Shown: positions 28,746 to 41,350 of the stretch, one piece after another | Numbering within the stretch: position 1 is the stretch's first letter | How the letters are laid out: every line of letters begins with the position of its first letter | Assembly (NCBI RefSeq): GCF_013283195.1 | Contig: NZ_JABEKT010000001.1 | Location: forward strand, 372,001 to 436,000 | Length of the DNA stretch: 64,000 nucleotides | Direction of reading: 5' to 3' | Origin: Ensifer adhaerens | Lineage (GTDB): Bacteria > Pseudomonadota > Alphaproteobacteria > Rhizobiales > Rhizobiaceae | Program-made: the position numbers and the translations under genes | The notes under the pieces: generated by a model | Databases searched by the model: none | What the model was told of the DNA's origin: nothing | Seen by the model: the letters and a program-made list of their open reading frames with translations, nothing else

Positions 28746-28793
28746 ATGACTTTTAAGGACCCGTCACTGTTTCGCCAGGCTGCCCTGATTGGC

Positions 28794-28903
28794 GGCGAAT
28801 GGATTGAAGCGGATGCCGCCAATGCGATCGAAGTGACCAACCCGGCGAGGCGAATGGATTGAAGCGGATGCCGCCAATGCGATCGAAGTGACCAACCCGG
28901 CGA
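28794..28903 (+). repeat. Exact 55-bp tandem duplication, 5' part of gabD
   Basis: 28794-28848 and 28849-28903 are identical base for base; the bases on either side differ, so the repeat is exactly 55 long. The extra unit shifts the frame by one base. Confidence 0.98.
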
Positions 28904-29773
28904 CGGGCGAACTCATCGGACGCGTGCCGAAGCTTGGCGGCAAGGAGACGAAGGCGGCGATCGAAGCGGCGCGTCTGGCGCAGAAGGGCTGGGCTGCTCG
29001 CACTGCCAAGGACCGCGCCGGCGTGCTTCGCCGCTGGTTTGAGCTGATGATCGAGAACAAGGACGATCTCGGCCGCATCCTCACGCTCGAACAGGGCAAG
29101 CCGCTCGCCGAGGCGACCGGCGAAATCGTCTATGGCGCAAGCTTTGTCGAGTGGTTCGCCGAAGAAGGGCGCCGCATCTATGGCGACCTGATCCCCGGCC
29201 ACCAGCCGGACAAGCGCATCATGGTGATGAAGCAGCCGATCGGCGTCGTCGCCGCGATCACGCCCTGGAACTTCCCCAATGCGATGATCACCCGCAAGGC
29301 GGGTCCTGCCTTTGCAGCCGGCTGCGCCATGGTGCTGAAGCCAGCGGCACAGACGCCGTTCTCGGCCATCGCGATCGCCATTCTCGCCGAACGTGCCGGC
29401 CTGCCGAAGGGTCTCTTCAGCGTCGTCACCGGCTCGGCTCGCGAGATCGGCGCGGAGATGACCGCCAACCCGGTGGTGCGCAAGCTGACCTTTACCGGCT
29501 CGACGGAAGTCGGCGCCGAGCTCTATCGCCAGAGCGCCGGCACGATCAAGAAGCTCGGGCTGGAGCTCGGCGGCAATGCACCGTTCATCGTCTTCGATGA
29601 TGCCGATCTCGATGCGGCCGTGGAAGGCGCCCTGATCGCCAAGTTCCGCAACAACGGCCAGACCTGCGTCTGCGCCAACCGCATTTATGTGCAGGACAAG
29701 GTCTATGACGCCTTCTCCGACAAGCTGGCGGCGGCCGTTGCCAAGCTGTCGATCGGCAATGGTCTCGACCAGG

Positions 29774-29883
29774 GCGTGATCCTCGGCCCGCTGATCGACC
29801 AGGCGGCACTGGAGAAGGTCGAGGAACAGCGTGATCCTCGGCCCGCTGATCGACCAGGCGGCACTGGAGAAGGTCGAGGAACA
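29774..29883 (+). repeat. Exact 55-bp tandem duplication, 3' part of gabD
   Basis: 29774-29828 and 29829-29883 are identical, again exactly 55 bases with differing flanks. Same length as the 5' pair but unrelated in sequence. Confidence 0.98.
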
Positions 29884-30341
29884 CGTTGCCGATGCCACCG
29901 CCAAGGGCGCGCGGGTGATCCAGGGCGGCAAGCGCCATGCCCTCGGTGGTACCTTCTATGAGGCGACGGTGCTGGCCGACGTTACCCAGGCGATGGCGGT
30001 CGCTCGCGAAGAGACTTTCGGCCCCGTGGCGCCGCTGTTCCGCTTCACCGACGAGGCCGACGTAATTGAAAAGGCCAACGACACGGAATTCGGCCTGGCC
30101 TCCTATTTCTATGCGAAGGATCTGGCGCGGGTGTTCCGCGTGGCCGAGGCGCTGGAATACGGCATGGTCGGGGTCAACACCGGGTTGATTTCGACCGCGG
30201 AAGCACCGTTCGGCGGCGTCAAGCTCTCCGGCCTCGGCCGCGAGGGCTCCAGATACGGCATCGAGGAATTCACCGAGATCAAATATGTCTGCCTCGGCGG
30301 TATCGCCTGACGCATTTGCAGCGTGAAACAATCAGATCGCG

Positions 30342-30373
30342 AAACCGGCTGGAAAGTTCTGGCCGGTTTTTTT
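30342..30373 (+). terminator. Intrinsic terminator behind gabD
   Basis: AAACCGGC (30342-30349) pairs with GCCGGTTT (30362-30369) and is followed by a T-run to 30373. It separates gabD from the aldolase gene. Confidence 0.8.
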
Positions 30374-30419: not shown

Positions 30420-31226
30420 ATGCCGGCACCGAGCAACCCCTTCAAGGCAGCCCTTCGCGAACAGCGCTTTCAGCTCGGGCTCTGGGTCGCGCTGGCAAGC
30501 CCCTATGCGGCTGAGGTCATCTCCGGCAGCGGCTACGACTGGCTGTTGATCGACGGCGAGCACGCGCCCAACGATCTGCCGCTGCTCTCGGCGCAGTTCC
30601 GGGCCGTTGTTGCATCCGCCAGCCACCCGATCGTCCGTCTTCCGGTGGGCGATACCGCGATGATCAAGCAGATCCTCGATGTCGGCGTGCAGACGCTGCT
30701 CATTCCGATGGTCGAAAGCGTCGAGCAGGCGAAAGATCTGGTTCGCGCGACGCGTTATCCGCCGCATGGCATTCGCGGTGTCGGCGCGGCACTGGCGCGT
30801 GCGTCCGAGTTCGGCCGGATAACCGACTATCTCCATACCGCAAACGACCAGATCTGCCTTCTGCTGCAGATCGAGAGCCGCGCGGGTCTTGCGGCGATCG
30901 ACGAGATTGCCGCCCTTGAAGGCGTTGATGGCCTGTTCATCGGCCCATCGGATCTGGCCGCCGACATGGGCTATCTCGGCAGCCCGGGGCACCCGGAAGT
31001 GCGCGCGGCGATCATCGATGCCTTTGCGCGCATCGAAAAGGCTGGAAAGGCACGGGGTATCATGACGCTCGATCTCGCACAGGCCCGCGATTACCGCGAT
31101 CTCGGCGCCGATTTCATGGCGATCGGGACCGACGTGACCTCGCTGGTTCGGGCGACCCAGGCGCTGCGACAGGAGTTTACCGGCGAAGAAAGCCCGAAGG
31201 CCAACAAGATGGAATCCGGCTACTGA
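30420..31226 (+). CDS. HpcH/HpaI-family class II aldolase (2-keto-3-deoxy sugar-acid type)
   Basis: A 268-residue pyruvate-dependent, metal-using aldolase. Seen: FQLGLWVALASPYAAEVIS, YDWLLIDGEHAPNDL with the catalytic His and Asp region, RLPVGDTAMIKQILDVGVQTLLIPMV (residues ~75-100, given in part), LLLQIESRAGLAAIDEIAAL with the metal-binding glutamate, and DGLFIGPSDLAADMGYLG with the second ligand aspartate. Relatives cleave 2-keto-3-deoxy-rhamnonate, 5-keto-4-deoxyglucarate or 4-hydroxy-2-oxoheptanedioate. In this cluster 2-keto-3-deoxygluconate is the most likely substrate, giving pyruvate and glyceraldehyde, but this is inference. ATG at 30420 has GAGGAGATG upstream. It is convergent with uxaB and overlaps it by 7 bases. 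Confidence 0.85.
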   Translation: MPAPSNPFKAALREQRFQLGLWVALASPYAAEVISGSGYDWLLIDGEHAPNDLPLLSAQFRAVVASASHPIVRLPVGDTAMIKQILDVGVQTLLIPMVESVEQAKDLVRATRYPPHGIRGVGAALARASEFGRITDYLHTANDQICLLLQIESRAGLAAIDEIAALEGVDGLFIGPSDLAADMGYLGSPGHPEVRAAIIDAFARIEKAGKARGIMTLDLAQARDYRDLGADFMAIGTDVTSLVRATQALRQEFTGEESPKANKMESGY

Positions 31227-32311
31227 TCGCAGATCGTGGTTAGCATCGGCATGGAAACGCCCGGGCTCCATTGGCGGAGTCCGGCAATCCTCCTCACGAT
31301 CTTTTCAGAGTGATGGTTAGCGATATCGGTGAGCCGATGATCGAGGAACGGGTTTCGGAAGCGGTCGAGCGTGGTTTCGACATAGGCGCTGGCCTGTTGC
31401 CCAAGGCCCTTGGCGGCAAAGGCAGGAACCACTTCCCGGTCGTAGATATCTTCGAGCCGCCTGGCGATATCGGCATGGCCAAGGATCTGCCGGACCGTTT
31501 CGCCGGGATCGCGCCGCCCCCTGATCCATATATCCGCAAGCACCGTGTGGCCGAGGTTGAGGATATGCAGCTTGAGCTTTTCATAGGGTGTCAGGTCGTC
31601 GACCAACAGCACGCATGCGTGCGCGCAAGGCGCCTTCAGCCCGGGCTGTTTCTCGATCGCCCATAAGGCGTAAGGCTCGGCCACGGCGCCGGCCGGCTCG
31701 ATCGGTTCGGAGACGATGCGGTCGACAAGCGTATTGGCCCAGATGACCTCGTTCGCCAGCCAGTCCGAGAGACGAGTGTCGTCAAGCCGCTCAAGCGCGA
31801 GCTCCAGCACGATCGCTTTCAGCACGTCGCCGTTGCGCGACACCAGTTCGCAGGGAAGGACAGTGAGCGGCTGGCCGCCGGCGTCGAAACGCGCTTTCAG
31901 AAGCAGCAGCAGTTTACCGGGAAAAGACCTCGGCACGGGCGCCGACAGGTCGTCGCCTGATGTGTCGTATCCAGTATCGCCGGTGTTGGAGATCAGAAAC
32001 TCGGCCTCTGCCGCCACGACATCACAAACTGCATCCCAGTTGCCGTCGGTCGACAGCGCGCGGGTGACGCTCGTGACCCGCTCGACCTTGTCGACCGGTT
32101 CGCCGTCGACAAGCCCACGGATCACTACAGGATATCCGCCAGGCTGCGTCAATGCCGCAAGACGTCCTGCTCGCTCGGCTGAACCTGTGGTCTGGACGAC
32201 CGTGATGTGTCCGGGTGCCGCCTGCCGATGGAGCGCTTCGCTGATGAAGAGATCGGCATGGGCCTGGAGAAAACGGCTCGTCCCAAACTGCACAAACGGT
32301 GTCTTCATCAT
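31220..32311 (-). CDS. uxaB: Tagaturonate reductase-like oxidoreductase (UxaB, mannitol dehydrogenase family)
   Basis: A 363-residue NAD-dependent polyol/sugar-acid dehydrogenase. The nucleotide-binding part reads VQFGTSRFLQAHADLF; later VIRGLVDGE, FLISNTGDTGYD, LPCELVSRNGD and NTLVDRIVSEP align in order with E. coli UxaB as I remember it; the catalytic helix block is DDLTPYEKLKLHILNLGHT, with the lysine and asparagine expected for the family. It is shorter than E. coli UxaB (about 480), lacking the last part. It would reduce D-tagaturonate to D-altronate. ATG-ATG at 32311/32308. It lies 17 bases behind gntR, so they form a unit. Confidence 0.8.
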   Translation of the reverse strand: MMKTPFVQFGTSRFLQAHADLFISEALHRQAAPGHITVVQTTGSAERAGRLAALTQPGGYPVVIRGLVDGEPVDKVERVTSVTRALSTDGNWDAVCDVVAAEAEFLISNTGDTGYDTSGDDLSAPVPRSFPGKLLLLLKARFDAGGQPLTVLPCELVSRNGDVLKAIVLELALERLDDTRLSDWLANEVIWANTLVDRIVSEPIEPAGAVAEPYALWAIEKQPGLKAPCAHACVLLVDDLTPYEKLKLHILNLGHTVLADIWIRGRRDPGETVRQILGHADIARRLEDIYDREVVPAFAAKGLGQQASAYVETTLDRFRNPFLDHRLTDIANHHSEKIVRRIAGLRQWSPGVSMPMLTTICDQ

Positions 32312-32328
32312 GGCGTTCCGGTAGCTGG

Positions 32329-33207
32329 CTATGGAATGGATTGCAGCAGCGTCTCGCGCGCCGAGCGCAGATGACGCCTGCAGGCTTCCTCGGCGCGTTT
32401 GGCATCGTGCGACCGCAGCGCTTCGATATAGGCAAGATGTTCTTCCAGCGCCCGCGCGTTTCGCTGCCGCGCGTTGGTCTTGTTCCATTGGTAGTGGTAG
32501 TGGAACACGATCGAGATGATGTCGTAGAAATCGACGATGAAACGATTGCTCGACGATTTGTGCACGAGCAGATGGAAGCGCTCGTCGAGCTCGGAGAATT
32601 CCTTGTAGCGGTTGTCGATGTCCGCGAGGATCTCGTGGTGCAGCGCTTCGATCCTGCTCAACTCCTGCCAGGCCGAATGGCTGTCCGGCAGCGCCACGAA
32701 GCTTGCAGCCGAGCGAAGCTCGAACATCTCGCGGACCTCGGTCAGTTCCAGCGCAAATTCGCGGGTAAAGCCCTTGAGGATCCAGTGGCTGTTCGGCCGC
32801 TTCTCGATCAGCCCGAACCGGCTGAAGCGGATCAGGAATTCCCGCACGCTGGTGGTGCCGGTGCCGATCTCGCGCGCCAGTTCCAGCTCGTTGATCTGCA
32901 TGCCCGGCTCGGCGCCACCGGCCAGAATCCGGCGCATGAAGCTGCGCTCGATGATTTCCGCGAGTGAATCCGTTTCTTCCGTCGGGAAGTAATCGTCCGG
33001 CCGCGGTTGGCGCAGCACGATCTTCTTGCGCTTGTCCCAGGTGATCAGCTTCGCCTCCTCGAAGCGGCCGAGAATGGCCCGCACCGTCGTCCGGCTGACG
33101 CCGAGCACCTGTCCCAGCTCCGGTTCGGAAGGCAGGGAGGATGTTTCCGCCAGCACTTTCAGGCAGCGGTTATAGGCATCCTTGAAGACGGTGTTCTGCT
33201 TTGCCAT
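32329..33207 (-). CDS. GntR-family regulator with two winged-helix domains and an FCD-like C-terminus
   Basis: A 292-residue protein, longer than the 220-250 usual for FadR-type GntR regulators. The extra length is a second N-terminal winged helix. Wing 1, residues about 5-65: SLPSEPELGQVLGVSRTTVR then AILGRFEEAKLI. Wing 2, residues about 80-140: AEPGMQINELELAREIGTGT then TSVREFLIRFSRFGLIEKR. The C-terminal part (about 145-290) is a helical ligand domain with spaced histidines (ERFHLLVHKSSSNRF, RRHLRSARE) as in metal-binding FCD domains. It is divergent from uxaA and upstream of uxaB, so it is the natural regulator of the cluster, probably answering a sugar acid. Confidence 0.85.
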   Translation of the reverse strand: MAKQNTVFKDAYNRCLKVLAETSSLPSEPELGQVLGVSRTTVRAILGRFEEAKLITWDKRKKIVLRQPRPDDYFPTEETDSLAEIIERSFMRRILAGGAEPGMQINELELAREIGTGTTSVREFLIRFSRFGLIEKRPNSHWILKGFTREFALELTEVREMFELRSAASFVALPDSHSAWQELSRIEALHHEILADIDNRYKEFSELDERFHLLVHKSSSNRFIVDFYDIISIVFHYHYQWNKTNARQRNARALEEHLAYIEALRSHDAKRAEEACRRHLRSARETLLQSIP

Positions 33208-33484
33208 TGCCAGGGTCCGGGCGGTTGAGGTTTCGCGGGCGACGGAGCGCTGATGCGATCAGCCTTCGTCGGCCGCCGATCTAGCCTGCCGCAGCGCACT
33301 TGTCTTCGTCTCTCGCACGAAAATCATGACGTTTCTCCCCTGTGGTCGCTGTGCTCGCGGGCGCACGTCGTACCGCTGCACTTGTCTCGCCGCATAATAC
33401 CCATTGACGGCAATCTGTCTATTGTGGATAAAAGACAAATAGGCCTTTCTCGAAATCGCAGCAATTTTCACGGAGAACATCAGG
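33208..33484. promoter_or_regulatory. Divergent gntR/uxaA promoter region
   Basis: 277 bases. TGTCT (33416-33420) and AGACA (33433-33437) form an inverted repeat around an AT-rich centre containing GATAAAAGA (33427-33435). The same 9-mer occurs upstream of the binding-protein gene (36209-36217), which makes it a candidate GntR operator element. TGTGGATAA (33423-33431) also reads as a DnaA box, but stands alone. Confidence 0.5.
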
Positions 33485-34990
33485 GTGTCAGTGCCGTCTT
33501 CAATCCTTCTGGCGCCCGAGGACAATGTGGTCGTGGCAACGCTTACGATCGCGCCCGGCGAAGCTCTGCCGGGCGGCGTCCGCACGGCGACGAAGATCGA
33601 TCCGGGCCACAAGGTTGCGATCCGGCCAATCCATGCGGGCGATCCCGTGGTCAAATATGCCCAGGCGATCGGGCGCGCGACCAGCGACATAAAAGCCGGC
33701 GAGCATGTGCATTCCCACAACCTCTCCTTCGATCAGGATCGGCTGGCGATCAGCCCGCAAGGCGCGCCGGAAGAGGCGAGCGCTGCCGACAGGGCGCGCA
33801 CTTTCATGGGCTATCGACGCGGCGACGGACGGGCGGCGACGCGCAACTATATCGGCATCATTGCCAGCGTGAACTGTTCCACCACGGTCTGTCGGGCGAT
33901 CGCCGAGGAGGCCAACAGGCGCATCTTGCCGAAATACGAAGGCATCGACGGCTTCGTCCCCATCGTCCATGACCAGGGCTGCGGCATGTCTTCGACCGGC
34001 GACGGCATGATGAACCTGCACAGGACGTTGGCGGGCTACGCAAGGCATGTGAATTTCGGTGGCGTGCTGATGGTCGGGCTTGGCTGCGAGGTCAATCAGT
34101 TGACGCTCTACGGGCAAAGCGGGGCAGGGCATGAAAAGCGCCATTTCAATATCCAGGAGGCTGGCGGCTCGCGGCGTTCGGTCGAGCGGGCGCTCGGCAT
34201 GCTCGACGAAATTGCCGAGGAAGTCGGCCGGCAGCGTCGTGTTGCCATTCCGGTGAGCGAGATCATCGTCGGTCTGCAATGCGGCGGCTCTGACGGCCTG
34301 TCCGGCATCACCGCCAACCCGGCTCTGGGGGCGGCGGTGGATATCCTGGCGGCCGCCGGCGGCACCGCGATCCTGTCCGAGACCTCGGAAATCTACGGTG
34401 CCGAACATCTGCTGCGCAGCCGGGCCGCCAACGACGCGGTTGCCGCCAAGCTCGATGGTCTGATCGCCTGGTGGGAAAACTATGTGGCGCTGCACGGCGC
34501 CTCGCTCGACAACAATCCTTCGCCGGGCAACAAGCGCGGTGGTCTGACGACCATTTTGGAGAAGTCGCTGGGGGCTGTGGCCAAGGGCGGCCGTTCGCCG
34601 CTCAATGCGGTCTACGGCTATGCCGAGCGCGTCACCGAACACGGCCTCGTCTTCATGGATACACCCGGCTACGACCCGGTATCGGCGACCGGCCAGGTTG
34701 CCGGCGGCGCCAATGTGATTGCCTTTACCACTGGCCGCGGCAGCTGTTTCGGCTGCAGGCCGGCACCGTCGATCAAGCTGACCAGCAACACCGCGCTGTT
34801 TCAGGCGATGGAAGAAGACATGGACATCGATTGTGGCGTGATCGCCTCCGGGGAGGCGACGATCGCCGGTCTCGGCCGCGAGATCTTTGATCTGATCATC
34901 GATACCGCTTCAGGAAAGAAGACCAAGAGCGAACTCTTCGGTTACGGCGACAACGAATTCGTGCCCTGGCATCTCGGGGCGACACTCTGA
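33485..34990 (+). CDS. uxaA: Altronate dehydratase (UxaA family)
   Basis: A 501-residue iron-dependent sugar-acid dehydratase turning D-altronate into 2-keto-3-deoxy-D-gluconate. Both family parts are present: an N-terminal SAF domain (residues about 10-85, ending GEHVHSHNLSF) and the C-terminal catalytic part. Conserved blocks: FVPIVHDQGCGMSSTGDGM, VGLGCEVNQLTLYG, GLQCGGSDGLSGITANPALG, NNPSPGNKRGGLTTILEKSLG and TTGRGSCFGCRPAPSIKLTSN; several cysteines could hold the metal centre. It starts at a GTG (33485) with CGGAGAAC upstream. It leads the plus-strand operon uxaA-AKR-ABC-ADH. Confidence 0.88.
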   Translation: MSVPSSILLAPEDNVVVATLTIAPGEALPGGVRTATKIDPGHKVAIRPIHAGDPVVKYAQAIGRATSDIKAGEHVHSHNLSFDQDRLAISPQGAPEEASAADRARTFMGYRRGDGRAATRNYIGIIASVNCSTTVCRAIAEEANRRILPKYEGIDGFVPIVHDQGCGMSSTGDGMMNLHRTLAGYARHVNFGGVLMVGLGCEVNQLTLYGQSGAGHEKRHFNIQEAGGSRRSVERALGMLDEIAEEVGRQRRVAIPVSEIIVGLQCGGSDGLSGITANPALGAAVDILAAAGGTAILSETSEIYGAEHLLRSRAANDAVAAKLDGLIAWWENYVALHGASLDNNPSPGNKRGGLTTILEKSLGAVAKGGRSPLNAVYGYAERVTEHGLVFMDTPGYDPVSATGQVAGGANVIAFTTGRGSCFGCRPAPSIKLTSNTALFQAMEEDMDIDCGVIASGEATIAGLGREIFDLIIDTASGKKTKSELFGYGDNEFVPWHLGATL

Positions 34991-35030
34991 CGATGTGATT
35001 TCGCGCATCCTTGGGGGAGGAGACAAGGGA

Positions 35031-36050
35031 ATGCAGACGAGAAAGATCGGTCGCACCGACCTGTCGGTGACCGAATACAGTTTTGGCGCCGCCGGCCTTG
35101 GCGGGCTCTACAGGGAGTGCACGCGAGACGCGGCAATGGCAACGCTGGATGCCGCCTGGTCCGCCGGCTTGCGCTACTTCGACGTTGCGCCGTACTACGG
35201 GCTCGGTCTTGCCGAACGGCGGGTCGGCGATTTCCTGCGCGACAAGCCGCGTGACGAGTTTGTGCTATCCACCAAAGTTGGCCGGCTGTTGCATCCGGTG
35301 CCGGAAGGTGATGTGCCCGACTATTCCTACGTCAAGCCGCTGAACTTCGACGTAGCGTACGACTACAGCTACGATGCCATCATGCGTTCGGTCGAATTCA
35401 GCTATGCGCGCCTCGGTCTCAATCGCATCGATATCCTCTATGTGCACGATATCGGCGTCTACACCCATGGCGCCGCCCGCAACGCCGTCTACCTGAAGCA
35501 ATTGCTGGATTCGGGCCTGAAGGCGCTGGAGGAACTGAAGGCGGGCGGCGTCATCGCCGCCTACGGTCTGGGGGTCAACGAGGTCCCGGTTTGCCTCGAC
35601 GTGATGCGGCACGCCGATATCGACTGCATCCTGCTTGCGGGCCGCTACACGCTGCTCGACCGGTCCGCCGTCGTCGAGCTTCTGCCGCTCTGCGAAAAGA
35701 AGAAGACGTCGCTTATCGTCGGCGGCGTGTTCAACTCAGGCATCCTTGCGACCGGTCCCGTCGATGGCGCGCATTTCGACTATATGCCGGCCAACAGCGA
35801 GGTCCTTGAGAAGGTCGGCGCGATGGAGCGGATCGCCCGGGAGCGGGGTGTACCGCTTGCCGCTGCCGCCATGCAGTTCCCGCTCGACAATCCGGTGGTT
35901 GCCTCGGTCCTGCTCGGGACAGCGAAACCGGAGAGCTTGCGGCGCAACATGGATGCGCTGAGGCACAGACTGTCTACGGACGATTTTTCGGCCTTTGAGC
36001 CCTACACGCTTGTGGCGCCGGAGCTTGGATTGGAGGCTGTCCGGGCCTGA
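35031..36050 (+). CDS. Aldo/keto reductase, L-galactose / L-fucose (D-threo-aldose) 1-dehydrogenase type
   Basis: A 339-residue AKR-fold enzyme. The AKR tetrad can be placed: Asp in YFDVAPYYGLGLAERRVGDF, Tyr in the same segment, Lys in LSTKVGRLL, His in IDILYVHDIG. Bacterial D-threo-aldose dehydrogenases and plant L-galactose dehydrogenase share this YSFGAAGLGGLY-type start and the VPDYSYVKPLNFDVAYDYSY loop (long and aromatic). It would oxidise L-galactose or L-fucose at C1 to the lactone. ATG at 35031 follows GGGGGAGGAG. It sits 40 bases behind uxaA. No lactonase gene is in the window; hydrolysis may be spontaneous or encoded elsewhere. Confidence 0.83.
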   Translation: MQTRKIGRTDLSVTEYSFGAAGLGGLYRECTRDAAMATLDAAWSAGLRYFDVAPYYGLGLAERRVGDFLRDKPRDEFVLSTKVGRLLHPVPEGDVPDYSYVKPLNFDVAYDYSYDAIMRSVEFSYARLGLNRIDILYVHDIGVYTHGAARNAVYLKQLLDSGLKALEELKAGGVIAAYGLGVNEVPVCLDVMRHADIDCILLAGRYTLLDRSAVVELLPLCEKKKTSLIVGGVFNSGILATGPVDGAHFDYMPANSEVLEKVGAMERIARERGVPLAAAAMQFPLDNPVVASVLLGTAKPESLRRNMDALRHRLSTDDFSAFEPYTLVAPELGLEAVRA

Positions 36051-36201
36051 CGCTTCGGGAGCCGGATCAGCGATCTTCGCGGATAGGGTTCCCGGACGCC
36101 GCATATCGAAACGCAACGCCGGAGGAGGCAGCACAGTCACGCAAATCGCAGCAACGACTGCTTGCAAAGCGGACAGTGTTGTATTAGCGTTTCGATATGT
36201 T

Positions 36202-36247
36202 TTTTATCGATAAAAGATCGATCTGCAAGCACCTGGCAGATCGATCT
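36202..36247 (+). promoter_or_regulatory. Palindromic operator and 12-bp inverted repeat upstream of the ABC transporter
   Basis: TTTTATCGATAAAA (36202-36215) is a perfect 14-base palindrome and contains the GATAAAA half-site. Directly after it AGATCGATCTGC (36215-36226) and GCAGATCGATCT (36236-36247) are perfect 12-base arms with a 9-base spacer. The region is 40-85 bases before the binding-protein ATG, so it may hold a regulator site and a leader hairpin. Confidence 0.6.
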
Positions 36248-36286
36248 CCATAAGATGGAACGAGGTGCACTGAGAGGAGAAACCCA

Positions 36287-37276
36287 ATGAGCATAACCAA
36301 GCACATTCTTTCCCGTCGTGCCTTCACCGCTCTCGCCGGAGCCGCGATGATCGCCACCATGGCGCCGGCCGCGTCCTTCGCGCAGGATGTCACCATTCCG
36401 ATCATCGTCAAGGACACCACGTCGTTCTACTGGCAGATCGTGCTGGCTGGTGCGCGTGCAGCCGGCAAGGATCTCGGCGTCAACGTTCCCGAACTCGGCG
36501 CACAGTCCGAATCCGATATCAACGGTCAGATCAGCATTCTCGAAAACGCCGTTGCCGGTTCCCCGGCTGCCGTCGTGATCTCGCCGACGGAATTCAAGGC
36601 TCTGGGCAAACCGATCGACGAGGCCGCTAAAGCGGTTCCGATCATCGGCATCGACTCCGGCGCCGATTCCAAGGCCTTCTCCTCGTTCCTGACGACCGAC
36701 AACGTTCAGGGTGGCAGGATCGCTGCTGATGGTCTGGCTGCAGCGATCAAGGAAATGTCGGGCAAGGAAGAGGGCGATATCGCCATTATCACCAGCCTGC
36801 CGGGCGTCGGTTCGCTCGACCAGCGCCGCGAAGGCTTCCTCGACCAGATCAAGACGAAATATCCGGGCTTCAAGGTCGTCGCCGACAAATATGCCGATGG
36901 TCAGGCAACCACAGGCCTCAACATGATGACCGACCTGATCACCGCCAACCCGAACCTTGTCGGCGTCTTTGCCTCCAACCTGATCATGGCGCAGGGCGTT
37001 GGTCAGGCGATCGCCGAAAACAAGCTCGGCGACAAGATCAAGGTTATCGGCTTCGACAGCGACGAGAAGACCGTCGGCTTCCTGAAGGAAGGCGTTTTGG
37101 CTGGCCTCGTCGTCCAGGATCCCTATCGCATGGGCTATGATGGCGTGAAGACGGCGCTTGCGGTCTCGAAGAAGGAGAAGGTCGAGGCCAATGTCGATAC
37201 CGGCGCCAATCTGGTGACCAAGGCGAACATGGCTGAGCCGAAGATCGACGCTCTGCTCAACCCGAAGGTCAATTGA
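36287..37276 (+). CDS. Sugar ABC transporter, periplasmic binding protein (ribose/galactose type)
   Basis: A 329-residue exported solute-binding protein of the peripla_BP_4/RbsB kind. Signal peptide: basic SITKHILSRRAF, hydrophobic AGAAMIATMAPAA, cleavage after SFA near residue 32. The mature part has DTTSFYWQIVLAGARAAGKD, VVISPTEFKALGKPIDEA, IGIDSGADSKAF and GGRIAADGL. GAGAGGAG before the ATG. It precedes an ATPase and a permease, making a full importer. The substrate is likely the cluster's sugar (L-galactose or L-fucose), by context only. Confidence 0.92.
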   Translation: MSITKHILSRRAFTALAGAAMIATMAPAASFAQDVTIPIIVKDTTSFYWQIVLAGARAAGKDLGVNVPELGAQSESDINGQISILENAVAGSPAAVVISPTEFKALGKPIDEAAKAVPIIGIDSGADSKAFSSFLTTDNVQGGRIAADGLAAAIKEMSGKEEGDIAIITSLPGVGSLDQRREGFLDQIKTKYPGFKVVADKYADGQATTGLNMMTDLITANPNLVGVFASNLIMAQGVGQAIAENKLGDKIKVIGFDSDEKTVGFLKEGVLAGLVVQDPYRMGYDGVKTALAVSKKEKVEANVDTGANLVTKANMAEPKIDALLNPKVN

Positions 37277-37388
37277 CGGCAATCGGCGGCAAGCGCGCGA
37301 GCGTCGCCTGCCGCCGAGAATACGGGTGCCAGCGGTCGGATACGAGGACCGGCCGCTGGCAGTCCGCACGATGGGGAGGAGTGCTGAG

Positions 37389-38942
37389 ATGCCAGGTCTC
37401 GACGAGGTCAGCGATATCAAGAGCGACGGTCTGAGGACGGCTGCCCGCCACCCGGTGCCGAAGGGCGAACCGATCCTGGAAATGCGAGCGCTGCAGAAGA
37501 AGTACGGCGCTGTCGAAGCATTGAAACCCGCCTCAATCACATTCCTGTCCGGAGAAGTTCATGCAATCGTCGGCGAAAATGGCGCCGGCAAGTCGACACT
37601 GATCAAGCTTCTGACCGGCGTGATCCGCCGCACCTCGGGCGAAATCTACTGGTGTGGCAAGCCGGTTCAGCTCGACAACCCGCAGGAGGCGATCGCGCGC
37701 GGCATCAACGCCGTGCATCAGGAGGTCGTGCTTTGCCCGCACTTGAGCGTGGCCGCCAACATGTTCCTCGGCGACGAGATCAACAGCGCCGGCCTGATGC
37801 GCAAGCGTGCCATGACCGAGGCGGCCCAGAGCGTGCTTGATGATCTTGGCTTCAACCTGCCGGCAGCCGCAACGCTCGGCAGCCTGACGATCGGCCAGCA
37901 ACAGCTGGTCGCGACCGCCCGCGCCGCCATGCGCGGCACCCAGTTTTTGATCTTCGACGAGCCGACCGCCTATCTGACCCGCCAGGAATCCGCCCAGCTC
38001 TTCCGGCTCATTCGCCGGCTACAGGGCGAGGGGGTGACGATCGTCTATATCAGCCACCGCATGGAGGAGGTGTTCGAACTCGCCGATCGTGTGTCGGTGC
38101 TGCGCGACGGCACCCATGTCGGCACGCGAAAGATCGGCGAGACCAACGACGCCGAGTTGATCACCCTGATGATCAACCGCACGATCGAGCAGATCTATCA
38201 CAAGGAACATTTTCAAGCCGGCGAAACGATCCTTGAAACCCGGGGCTTGAGCGGCCCCGGCTTCGAGGATGTGTCGCTCACCGTTCGTGCCGGCGAGATC
38301 GTCGGCCTCTATGGCCTGATCGGTGCCGGACGCAGCGAGTTTGCCCTTGGCCTCTACGGTCGCCATGCGGCGACTGCAGGCGAGGTCTACTGGCAGGGAC
38401 GCAAGGTCAATATCGCCAATGAACGCAAGGCGATGGACCTCGGCATCGCGCTGGCGCCCGAAAGCCGGCGCGACCAGGGCCTTTGCCTCAACCTGCCGAT
38501 CGGCCTCAATATCAATCTGCCGATCTTCAGTCGGTTGACTCGCGGTCTGACGATCAACCGTCTGAAAGAAATCGAGAATGCCGACAGGCAGATCCGCGAT
38601 CTGAAGATCAAGACGCCGTCACGCCGTGTTCTGGCGTCGGCGATGTCCGGCGGCAATCAGCAGAAGATCGTCATCGGCAAGTGGCTGAGCCACGGCGCCA
38701 AGCTGTTCATCTTCGACGAACCGACGGTCGGCGTCGATGTCGGCACCAAGGCGGAAATCTACCGGCTGTTCGCCCGACTTCTGGAGAACGGCGCAGGGAT
38801 CATCCTGATCTCCTCCTATCTGCCGGAGGTCTACGAACTCTCCGATCGCCTGCACGTGTTTCGGCGTGGGCGGCTGGTCGCCAGCCACGATTACCGCGCC
38901 GCAAGCCACGAGGAAGTGCTGACGCAGGCGATCGGCGTCTGA
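37389..38942 (+). CDS. Sugar ABC transporter, duplicated ATPase (RbsA/MglA type)
   Basis: A 517-residue protein with two nucleotide-binding domains. Domain 1: Walker A VGENGAGKSTLIKLLTG at residues about 61-77, the signature position TIGQQQLVATARAAM, Walker B FLIFDEPTAYL. Domain 2: degenerate Walker A GLIGAGRSEFALGLYGR, signature SGGNQQKIVIGKWL, Walker B LFIFDEPTVGVDVG. This is the asymmetric layout of ribose-type systems. The ATG at 37389 follows GGGGAGGAG; the frame opens earlier (37326), but those residues are not family-like. Confidence 0.94.
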   Translation: MPGLDEVSDIKSDGLRTAARHPVPKGEPILEMRALQKKYGAVEALKPASITFLSGEVHAIVGENGAGKSTLIKLLTGVIRRTSGEIYWCGKPVQLDNPQEAIARGINAVHQEVVLCPHLSVAANMFLGDEINSAGLMRKRAMTEAAQSVLDDLGFNLPAAATLGSLTIGQQQLVATARAAMRGTQFLIFDEPTAYLTRQESAQLFRLIRRLQGEGVTIVYISHRMEEVFELADRVSVLRDGTHVGTRKIGETNDAELITLMINRTIEQIYHKEHFQAGETILETRGLSGPGFEDVSLTVRAGEIVGLYGLIGAGRSEFALGLYGRHAATAGEVYWQGRKVNIANERKAMDLGIALAPESRRDQGLCLNLPIGLNINLPIFSRLTRGLTINRLKEIENADRQIRDLKIKTPSRRVLASAMSGGNQQKIVIGKWLSHGAKLFIFDEPTVGVDVGTKAEIYRLFARLLENGAGIILISSYLPEVYELSDRLHVFRRGRLVASHDYRAASHEEVLTQAIGV

Positions 38943-38982
38943 TCGCGACAATGAAAATCAAGGGCAAGCAGGGAGAACGACG

Positions 38983-39960
38983 ATGAGTGCTGAAACGGTC
39001 GAAAGCGGAACGGGTCCGGCGCCGCGGAAAGGCGTGAGCATTCTGTTCGGCCTGACGCTTCTCGGGCTCCTGCTTTTCCTCTGGCTGCTCCTGGGCCTTG
39101 CCACCAACAGTTTCTGGACGCCGAACAACATCAGCAACCTCTTGCGCCAGGGTGCGATGACGGCGATCCTCGCCGTCGGCCAGACCTTCGTTATCATCAC
39201 TGCCGGCATCGATCTGTCCGTCGGTGCCGTTGTCGGCTTCACCAGCGTCATCGTCGCCTGGCTGCTTGCCGCCGGCGTGCCGCTCTGGATCGCCATCATC
39301 CTGACGCTCGCCTTCGGCGTCTTGATCGGCGCTTTCCATGCCTTCGGCATCGTTCGCATGGGGCTGCCGCCGTTCATCATCACGCTCGCAACGCTGACGT
39401 CGCTGCGCGGCATCGGGCTCTTGATCACCAACGGCTCGACGATCTCGATTACCAACGAGGCCTTCACCAATTTTTCCCGCGCCGATTTTCTCGGCGTGCC
39501 AAGCCTGTTCTGGATGGTGATCGTGGTGGCGATCCCGGCCTATGTCTTCCTGCACCTGAGCCGCTTCGGCCGCTACCTCTTTGCCGTCGGCTCCAACAGC
39601 GAGGCGGCGCGGCTTTCCGGTGTCAACGTGCATCGCACCATCTATCTCGCCTACATTCTGTCTTCGACCTGCGCCGCCTTCGTCGGCCTGCTCCTCGCCT
39701 CTCGCATCGGCATCGGCAACGCCACCCAGGCCGAAGGCTGGGAACTGCAGGCGATTGCCTCCTCGGTCATCGGCGGCACCAGTCTCTTCGGCGCGGTCGG
39801 CTCGGTGCATGGCCCGCTGCTCGGCGCCTTCATCCTCGCCACGATCAACAACGGTGCCAACCTGCTCAACGTCAATTCGTTCTGGCAGCGCATCATCACC
39901 GGCGTGCTGATCATCGTGATCGTCTATTTTGACCAGCTCAGGCGGCGCGGCGCCCGTTAG
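38983..39960 (+). CDS. Sugar ABC transporter, permease (RbsC type)
   Basis: A 325-residue membrane protein with about 8-10 hydrophobic helices, starting ILFGLTLLGLLLFLWLLLG. Family signatures: AVGQTFVIITAGIDLSVGAV near residue 70, then the EAARLSGVNVHRTIYLAYIL coupling loop and GGTSLFGAVGSVHGPLLGAF near 265. A single permease gene suggests a homodimer. It is 40 bases behind the ATPase and 33 before the dehydrogenase. Confidence 0.94.
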   Translation: MSAETVESGTGPAPRKGVSILFGLTLLGLLLFLWLLLGLATNSFWTPNNISNLLRQGAMTAILAVGQTFVIITAGIDLSVGAVVGFTSVIVAWLLAAGVPLWIAIILTLAFGVLIGAFHAFGIVRMGLPPFIITLATLTSLRGIGLLITNGSTISITNEAFTNFSRADFLGVPSLFWMVIVVAIPAYVFLHLSRFGRYLFAVGSNSEAARLSGVNVHRTIYLAYILSSTCAAFVGLLLASRIGIGNATQAEGWELQAIASSVIGGTSLFGAVGSVHGPLLGAFILATINNGANLLNVNSFWQRIITGVLIIVIVYFDQLRRRGAR

Positions 39961-39993
39961 GCGCCCGGCTCCCAACAACATACGGAAAATGCC

Positions 39994-41016
39994 ATGAAAG
40001 CCGTCCTCTGCCCGCAACCCGGTCGCCTGGAGATCGTTGACCGTGCGCCGGTGCCGACCCCACCCGCGGGTTGGGTCAGCGTCGCCGTCAGCCATGTTGG
40101 TATCTGCGGCACCGACTATCACATCTTCGCCGGCAAGCACCCGTTCCTGGAATATCCGCGCGTCATGGGCCACGAGATCTCCGCCACCGTGCTTGCTAAC
40201 GGACCGGGAACGGTGATCGCGCCAGGCACGCCTGTCGTGGTCAATCCCTATCTCTCCTGCGGCCTGTGTGTCGCCTGCCGCCGTGGAAAGCCGAACTGCT
40301 GCACGGCGATCAAGGTGCTCGGTGTCCACACGGACGGCGCCTTCTGCGAGGAAATCCTCGTGCCCGAAGGCAATCTTTATCCGGCCATCGACCTCACGCC
40401 GGAAGCGGCCGCGACGGTGGAGTTTCTCGCCATCGGCGCCCACGCCGTGCGCCGGGCTGCCGCACCGGCCGGTGTGCGCGCCCTGGTCATCGGTGCCGGG
40501 CCGATCGGGCTTGGAACGGCCATTTTCTCGCGCATCGCCGGCCACGTCGTCACGCTGATGGATACCAGCACTGAAAGGTTGGCTTTCGCGACCGACCGGC
40601 TCGGTTTCGGCGGCGGCCTCGTCGCCGACGAAGCAGCCGGCCGCCGCATCGCCGAAGCCACGGATGGCGACGGATACGACGTCGTCTTCGATGCCACCGG
40701 CCACGCCGGCTCGATGGAAGCTGCCTTCGGCCATGTGGCGCATGGGGGAACGCTGGTGTTCGTCAGCGTCGTCAAGGACGAGATCCGCTTCTCCGATCCG
40801 GAATTTCACAAGCGGGAGATGACGCTGATCGGCAGCCGCAACGCCACACGCGAGGATTTCGACCATGTGGTCAATGCGATCAGGCAAGGGCTGGTGCCGG
40901 TGGAGGCGCTGATTACCCATCGAACGACGATGGACGCGGTGGTTGAGGATTTGCCGCGCTGGGCAAACGAGAAATCCGGCCTGGTCAAGGCGATTGTCCG
41001 GATCGCGGCGGCGTGA
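39994..41016 (+). CDS. Zinc-dependent alcohol dehydrogenase, L-galactonate 5-dehydrogenase-like (LgoD/YjjN type)
   Basis: A 340-residue medium-chain dehydrogenase. Catalytic zinc ligands: VGICGTDYHIF and VMGHE. Structural zinc cysteines: CGLCVACRRGKPNCC. Nucleotide fold: ALVIGAGPIGLGTAIFSRIAG. From memory it shares with E. coli LgoD the runs GVHxDGxF, AHAVRRAA and FSDPEFHKREMTLIGSRNAT in the same order. LgoD oxidises L-galactonate to D-tagaturonate, the substrate of UxaB, so the gene joins the AKR and uxaBA steps. A related L-gulonate or sorbitol-type substrate cannot be excluded. Confidence 0.83.
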   Translation: MKAVLCPQPGRLEIVDRAPVPTPPAGWVSVAVSHVGICGTDYHIFAGKHPFLEYPRVMGHEISATVLANGPGTVIAPGTPVVVNPYLSCGLCVACRRGKPNCCTAIKVLGVHTDGAFCEEILVPEGNLYPAIDLTPEAAATVEFLAIGAHAVRRAAAPAGVRALVIGAGPIGLGTAIFSRIAGHVVTLMDTSTERLAFATDRLGFGGGLVADEAAGRRIAEATDGDGYDVVFDATGHAGSMEAAFGHVAHGGTLVFVSVVKDEIRFSDPEFHKREMTLIGSRNATREDFDHVVNAIRQGLVPVEALITHRTTMDAVVEDLPRWANEKSGLVKAIVRIAAA

Positions 41017-41350
41017 CGCCCCGGTCCTGCTGCAATGCGGAAGATCGGATTGAGGCCTGGCGGCCGTGGGGCGCTTCAGAAAAAAGCGTCTGCCCGTGCC
41101 CAAAAACGCGAATTTCTGAAGAAAACGGACGGTTTCGGCCAGCTCCGGGCAAGTCCGTTTGTTAAATATCAGCAATCCGGGCGCATTCTCGCAGAAGTCG
41201 CTTGTATCGAGGTGAAACGGGTATACTTGTTGCAGTGCACAAGAAACATGGTAGTCTTGCAAGGATTGCGGACACCAAGACAAACAATCGCAAGCTTGCG
41301 TCCGACTGGGAGCGGCGTTGTCGTTGATTGAACCAAGGGGTACGCTTCCT
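41017..41350. other. Gap between the dehydrogenase and phaZ
   Basis: 334 bases without a convincing gene. AAACGGAC (41123-41130) and GTCCGTTT (41153-41160) form an inverted repeat just before TTAAATAT, perhaps the end of the sugar operon. The phaZ promoter must lie in the right half; AAGGGG stands ahead of the phaZ ATG. Confidence 0.4.

Follow-up and report, generated by a model that had tools for sequence, protein, structure and literature searches.

Gene content and predicted regulation of the cluster

The 64,000-nucleotide stretch of Ensifer adhaerens DNA analysed here (the window) carries at 30420–41016, in order, a HpaI-type aldolase gene (forward strand), genes for a short UxaB-like protein and an FCD-type GntR regulator (reverse strand), and genes for a UxaA-type dehydratase, an aldo/keto reductase (AKR), three components of a CUT2 ATP-binding cassette (ABC) transporter, and a LgoD-like zinc dehydrogenase (ZnDH) (forward strand). 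A first-pass annotation had read these genes as a non-phosphorylative L-galactose (or L-galactonate) catabolic cluster; every gene it named was found in place, but the FCD-GntR regulator, which belongs to the cluster, was missing from its list. We consider the chance somewhat better than even that the locus is a GntR-controlled cluster for the import and oxidation of L-fucose-configured aldoses, with an L-galactonate branch.

The regulator gene (32329–33207, reverse strand; Pfam GntR and FCD domains) is divergent from uxaA, and a palindrome-like 22-mer is common to GntR-divergent intergenic regions. This candidate operator was found by reading the intergenic regions, gapped-palindrome counting having failed to single it out, and a matrix was built from the 15 distinct 22-mers of 48 such regions (40–900 bp; GntR at least 60% identical and beside UxaA, AKR, or UxaB). 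The operator-like site before uxaA (operator 1, TGTCTATTGTGGATAAAAGACA, 33416–33437, forward strand) lies at a place where all 47 loci, the window included, have a site at 18 bits, a count that is circular, the matrix having been trained on operator 1. It overlaps a promoter-like pair (TTGACG-17-GATAAA) that was read by eye and not called by the promoter scan. The place before the binding-protein gene, which was unused in training, has a site in 33 of the 47 loci; in the window this is operator 2 (operator-like; 36198–36219, forward strand; 29.6 bits). A score of 18 bits was reached at no other place in the 47 loci, nor was there any match of that strength in 20 Markov copies of the window.

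Sister clusters were taken from the best 80 loci (more exist) of a scan of genome contigs with a profile of the AKR alignment, together with further relatives; 46 core loci had an AKR of at least 60% and a binding protein of at least 70% identity. Gene contexts come from a crude open reading frame (ORF) caller and tblastn thresholds, with contig ends counted as absence, and the locus counts lack full independence (L131 and L116 are apparently one organism, and L128 is nearly identical to the window). All 46 core loci have the GntR gene (at least 60% identity), 40 have ZnDH, 37 UxaA, 25 a FucU-type mutarotase, 13 the aldolase, 10 UxaB, four a lactonase, and two a short-chain dehydrogenase/reductase (SDR); given this co-occurrence, the make-up of the cluster is more than chance. 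The FucU-type protein of L116 scores 124 bits against the L-fucose mutarotase model (cut-off 141) and the lactonase of L109 scores 203 bits against the L-fucono-1,5-lactonase model (cut-off 400); each was the one member tested, and each is a relative below membership. The same-genus locus L108 carries UxaB, and the Sinorhizobium kostiense cluster (L129) is without it; among the genomes compared in one study, uxaB is listed with the gene clusters that all Ensifer have in common but Sinorhizobium does not (PMC10538136).

Sugar import and the L-galactonate branch

The transporter is encoded by genes for a binding protein (36287–37276), an ATPase (37326–38942), and a permease (38983–39960), all on the forward strand, the latter two assigned by family models and domains. 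In Sinorhizobium meliloti, binding by the CUT2 protein SMc02774 has been reported at 3.6 nM for L-fucose and at 1.6 µM for L-rhamnose (PMC3454389); SMc02773 is named as the ATPase of the fucose ABC transporter, SMc02775 as an L-fucose dehydrogenase, and phaZ is SMc02770 (PMC12542648). The S. meliloti order, with phaZ (SMc02770), the ABC genes (SMc02772–SMc02774), and the L-fucose dehydrogenase gene (SMc02775), is mirrored in the window (PMC12542648; PMC3454389), where phaZ (703 bits) lies at 41318. The published core of SMc02774 spans Q33 to N329, with Lys10, Arg148, Asn199, and Gln245 of the core as ligand residues by comparison with ribose binders (PMC3454389); the window protein shows every one of them at offset zero (Q33, N329, K42, R180, N231, and Q277), but does not do so when shifted by 1 to 3 positions. 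By locus-tag order and these six positions, known from published numbering and not from sequence alignment, the window protein is the counterpart (ortholog) of SMc02774. The same four ligand residues are kept in more distant binding proteins of the alignment, and therefore, taken alone, they are no proof of fucose binding. Comparison with the ortholog suggests that the window protein probably binds L-fucose, and the FucU-type and fuconolactonase-type genes of some sister clusters point the same way. L-galactose, the imported sugar in the first-pass annotation, gives way here to the ortholog's measured nanomolar ligand; in the main text of that study L-galactose occurs once only, within the name 6-deoxy-L-galactose (PMC3454389). 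The transporter would thus be expected to import L-fucose, and perhaps L-galactose or D-arabinose, which have the same ring configuration.

A phmmer search gave one very close solved protein for the binding protein, 4rxt (86% identity), which Foldseek named Arad_9553 of Agrobacterium radiobacter; the structure model used for the Foldseek search was poor (mean pLDDT 63.8) and served solely for this naming. Elsewhere in the genome (C14:416001–436000), CUT2 paralogues of the binding protein (63%) and of the ATPase (71%) are encoded beside a kinase-type gene for four-carbon acid sugars (SBD_N/NBD_C), a lactonase gene of SMP-30 type, a FucU-type gene, and an SDR gene, forming another acid-sugar cluster.

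The AKR gene (34995, or more likely 35031, to 36050; forward strand) encodes a putative aldose 1-dehydrogenase for L-fucose-configured sugars. The solved structures closest to it carry the name L-galactose dehydrogenase, in keeping with the suggestion of the first-pass annotation that it may oxidise L-galactose, and SMc02775, at the corresponding place in S. meliloti, is annotated as an L-fucose dehydrogenase (PMC12542648; PMC3454389). One AKR has been reported to act on D-arabinose, L-fucose, and L-galactose (PMC6336799). Among the matches listed, the closest named ones to the AKR are from a ‘Rhizobiales bacterium’ isolate (93%), Ensifer sp. (85%), and S. kostiense (83%). The enzyme would oxidise the imported sugar to its lactone, which would open spontaneously or via a lactonase.

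ZnDH (39994–41016, forward strand) shares 39.9% identity with LgoD of E. coli across 336 aa, and its best model is PRK10083 (181 bits, cut-off 376); as a putative L-galactonate 5-dehydrogenase, it would oxidise C5 of L-galactonate to give D-tagaturonate. The UxaB gene of the first-pass annotation is present (31220–32308, reverse strand), but encodes a short form of 362 aa that covers positions 19–370 of the 482-position model PRK03643 at 205 bits, against a curated cut-off of 359, and is 29% identical to E. coli UxaB. It is thus a short relative that falls below the cut-off of the tagaturonate reductase model, and would reduce D-tagaturonate to D-altronate. UxaA (33485–34990, forward strand; SAF and GD_AH domains) shows 36% identity with UxaA of E. 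coli and 37% with GarD, has all three Pfam domains of the UxaA/GarD family, and holds the genome's single match to the C-terminal domain family; its candidate substrates are D-altronate or, directly, L-galactonate, L-fuconate, or D-arabinonate. Acting on D-altronate, it would yield 2-keto-3-deoxygluconate (KDG), to be finished by KdgK and Eda encoded elsewhere in the genome.

Of 297 genomes from the order, 21 (that of the window included) have a match to the short UxaB with an E-value of at most 1e-40. In stretches of 17.6–20 kb around 20 of the 22 matches (those of the window's genome and of G278 left out), a LgoD-like gene was found in 15, GntR in 11, a binding protein in seven, UxaA in four, the AKR and a lactonase-type gene in two each, a FucU-type gene in one, and the aldolase in none. 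KDG-kinase-type genes adjoin the ZnDH–UxaB clusters of L037, L040, and L044 (272, 284, and 284 bits; cut-off 400). A separate GntR–UxaB–LgoD–UxaA module in another genome (G386, contig C8; L251) has a different ABC transporter and operator-like sites of 26.0 and 21.1 bits. Glycoside hydrolase family GH95 genes lie next to short UxaB and LgoD-like genes in L043 and L047, the former also with a fucosidase-like (GHL6) gene; their products might liberate L-fucose or L-galactose from polysaccharides of plants.

A search of the whole genome (7.07 Mb, 20 contigs, 99.95% complete) gave no UxaC match, so that the absence noted in the first-pass annotation extends beyond the window; D-galacturonate use through UxaC is rejected for this genome. 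The distribution of UxaB and UxaC was compared in 10 of the 20 family genomes examined, namely those with UxaA in the cluster; left out were G379 and the nine without UxaA beside the AKR (G368, G351, G299, G307, G348, G386, G357, G384, and G358). Four have UxaB in the cluster and no UxaC (G000, G365, G396, and G376), one has both (G395), five have UxaC elsewhere in the genome and no in-cluster UxaB (G340, G023, G392, G069, and G324), and none has neither (Fisher two-sided 0.048, uncorrected for kinship in a small, related sample). This pattern fits the need for a tagaturonate reductase. Because of the LgoD likeness of ZnDH, the co-occurrence of UxaB and LgoD-like genes, and the absence of UxaC, the ZnDH–UxaB–UxaA part is best read as a predicted route from L-galactonate through tagaturonate and altronate to KDG, which retains the LgoD-like step of the first-pass annotation.

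The enolase-type fuconate dehydratase, SDR, and hydrolase of the non-phosphorylative L-fucose pathway are not in the window cluster; such genes occur in a separate locus of the same genome (L282 and L308), and therefore the cluster need not carry the fuconate branch. Two enzymes of the enolase type are encoded in this locus, a first one of the enolase family and a second of the superfamily that shares 91% identity with the one in G365. Also encoded are a COG3618-type lactonase, which scores 108 bits against a cut-off of 400 with the fuconolactonase model, a mutarotase of the rhaM family, an SDR with 72% identity to the SDR of L115, and an FAH-family enzyme, which scores 423 bits against a cut-off of 500 with the model for 2,4-didehydro-3-deoxy-L-rhamnonate hydrolase, as well as, by eye, an IclR-like regulator and a CUT1-like transporter. 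The locus is predicted to serve fucose, and fuconate formed by the AKR would probably be finished there by the lactonase, enolase-family dehydratase, SDR, and FAH hydrolase. The window cluster as an ordinary L-fucose pathway is a candidate weakened by this second locus.

Several points weigh against the proposed import-and-oxidation cluster with its L-galactonate branch. In the UxaA tree, E. coli UxaA and GarD are on long branches, and UxaB-type contexts are not separated from SDR-type contexts. The AKR is without UxaA alongside in nine of the 20 genomes (cluster neighbourhoods), among them G351, which has AKR and ZnDH and, for UxaB, only a partial family match (118 bits, positions 164–478); ZnDH may therefore serve another job there. 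Family models place the second enolase-superfamily enzyme of the separate locus in the superfamily only (best 126 bits, cut-off 500), and its designation as FucD-like (fuconate dehydratase) is our presumption. The ligand of 4rxt is presumably D-arabinose. The genes themselves, their co-occurrence, the sites resembling operators, the lack of UxaC, and the KdgK- and Eda-type genes are observed, whereas we infer every substrate and every reaction of the scheme.

An unlikely alternative is that the cluster serves L-fucose only, with UxaA as L-fuconate dehydratase, keto-deoxy-fuconate cleaved to pyruvate and lactaldehyde or oxidised, and the LgoD- and UxaB-like proteins as accessories. The fucose binding of SMc02774 (PMC3454389) would agree with this, as would UxaA relatives of 50–53% identity that occur with AKR, lactonase, and SDR genes in L165, L201, and L204. 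For one UxaA-family enzyme, activity has been reported on four acids of common C2–C4 configuration (D-arabinonate, D-altronate, L-fuconate, and L-galactonate), that on L-fuconate (5.6%) and L-galactonate (2.4%) being weak (PMC6336799). However, the separate locus looks able to finish fuconate, and the presence of ZnDH in 40 of the 46 clusters and the UxaB/UxaC pattern would be left unexplained.

The neighbouring aldolase and remaining alternatives

The HpaI-type aldolase (30420–31226, forward strand) passes the model TIGR02311 for 4-hydroxy-2-oxoheptanedioate aldolase (375.5 bits, cut-off 368.8). The first-pass annotation had it cleave KDG in place of KdgK/KdgA, as the distinct ending of a dedicated L-galactose pathway, which now appears distinctly doubtful. 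In its favour, the chain is complete by gene names, the aldolase lies beside the cluster in all 13 phaZ-type loci of the 46, and the structures listed as related to it go by names of keto-deoxy-sugar aldolases (YfaU, deoxy-galactarate aldolase). Against this, the genome has a KdgK-like gene (C1:3424206, 38% identical to E. coli KdgK) and an Eda-family gene (C16:344689, 235.8 bits), and no such aldolase was seen within the stretches examined for 33 of the 46 clusters and for all 20 UxaB loci. A terminator-like hairpin (30341–30370, forward strand; 13 pairs and a T run) lies between gabD and the aldolase, although such matches are no commoner in the region than in shuffles, and none of the 15 aldolase upstream regions has an 18-bit operator site (best 14.3 bits, in L129; others 8.9 or less). 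In G386, the aldolase keeps its place between gyrB and phaZ though the AKR cluster lies elsewhere (L118, L117). The gyrB-linked copies form one clade (15 rows, 99/99), which falls together with homoprotocatechuate HpaI copies in a larger group.

The aldolase and gabD thus belong to the gyrB–phaZ locus, and the aldolase is probably outside the GntR regulon; a role for it is still conceivable because all 13 phaZ-type loci with the cluster carry it. Adjacency alone is insufficient for adding such a neighbour to a pathway. The genome's second HpaI gene is part of a cluster judged by eye to be of homoprotocatechuate type (L249), and the window copy is not in such a cluster. For the aldolase and gabD as a plain homoprotocatechuate pair the evidence is mixed: the separate gyrB-linked clade is against it, and for it is a pyridoxal 5′-phosphate (PLP) decarboxylase gene, like that of the homoprotocatechuate-type cluster, between gyrB and gabD in L114 and L130.

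The gabD-like aldehyde dehydrogenase gene (28747–30310, forward strand) was correctly placed alongside by the first-pass annotation, but it is part of the gyrB neighbourhood and outside the cluster. Two perfect tandem duplications of 55 bp (28794–28903 and 29774–29883), the only arrays that Tandem Repeats Finder listed in the window, break it into two frames. They are exact, of the same length, and placed at the two ends of a single stretch, and are probably an assembly artefact of unmerged 55-base overlaps.

A D-arabinose pathway, in which the AKR is followed by UxaA as D-arabinonate dehydratase, is improbable. Paraburkholderia and Herbaspirillum relatives of both enzymes do act in this way (PMC6336799), and D-arabinose and L-fucose are both listed among substrates used by Ensifer (PMC10538136). 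The close structure 4rxt is presumably a D-arabinose complex; however, D-arabinonate is without a secondary C5 hydroxyl, so that ZnDH and UxaB would be idle, and the cluster genes include no keto-deoxy-pentonate dehydratase. Least probable is C5 epimerisation of L-fucose, in which the LgoD-like enzyme would oxidise L-fuconate at C5, the short UxaB would give 6-deoxy-D-altronate, UxaA would dehydrate this, and the HpaI-type aldolase would release pyruvate and D-lactaldehyde because there is no 6-OH to phosphorylate; if true, it would explain both UxaB and the aldolase, and such a fucose route was not found in the literature searched.

Comparison with known systems

For rhizobia, the proposed cluster for L-fucose-configured aldoses would add a testable L-galactonate branch linked to a known importer of L-fucose, for which an operator and a regulon are proposed. 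Whether UxaA and UxaB accompany the AKR/transporter module varies between genera. A literature search, with subscription papers mostly outside its reach, found no description of this combination of genes in rhizobia.

In E. coli, LgoD, UxaB, UxaA, KdgK, and Eda give the same reaction order from L-galactonate to 2-keto-3-deoxy-6-phosphogluconate (KDPG), but lgoD, uxaB, uxaA, and kdgK lie apart, the acid symporter gene lgoT is beside lgoD, and UxaB is long (483 aa). Combined L-fucose/L-fuconate/L-galactonate loci were predicted from Halomonas and Chromohalobacter genomes (PMC5507952); by description, and not by protein comparison, they resemble the window in that a single locus combines lgoD, uxaA, and either uxaB or uxaF with fuc genes, and differ in a TRAP transporter for acids and a fuconate branch within the same locus. 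In the S. meliloti locus SMc02770–SMc02775, the locus tags place phaZ, the CUT2 ABC genes, and the gene for an AKR-type L-fucose dehydrogenase in the order of the window (PMC3454389; PMC12542648), whereas Sinorhizobium-type clusters (L129, L130) differ from the window in having a lactonase-type gene and no UxaB.

In Luteolibacter LG18, use of L-galactose and L-glucose through lguABCDEF has been shown by enzymes and gene disruption (PMC12632266). There, as in the window by genes alone, an AKR, a LgoD-type dehydrogenase, a tagaturonate reductase, and an altronate dehydratase are in one cluster. LG18 differs in belonging to the Verrucomicrobiota, in having the KDPG aldolase in the cluster, and in needing lguG for L-glucose; its listed genes include no transporter, and the regulator is of another type. 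The KDG kinase and KDPG aldolase of the LG18-type pathway are present by homology elsewhere in the window's genome. The parts are known, and the combination alone looks new.

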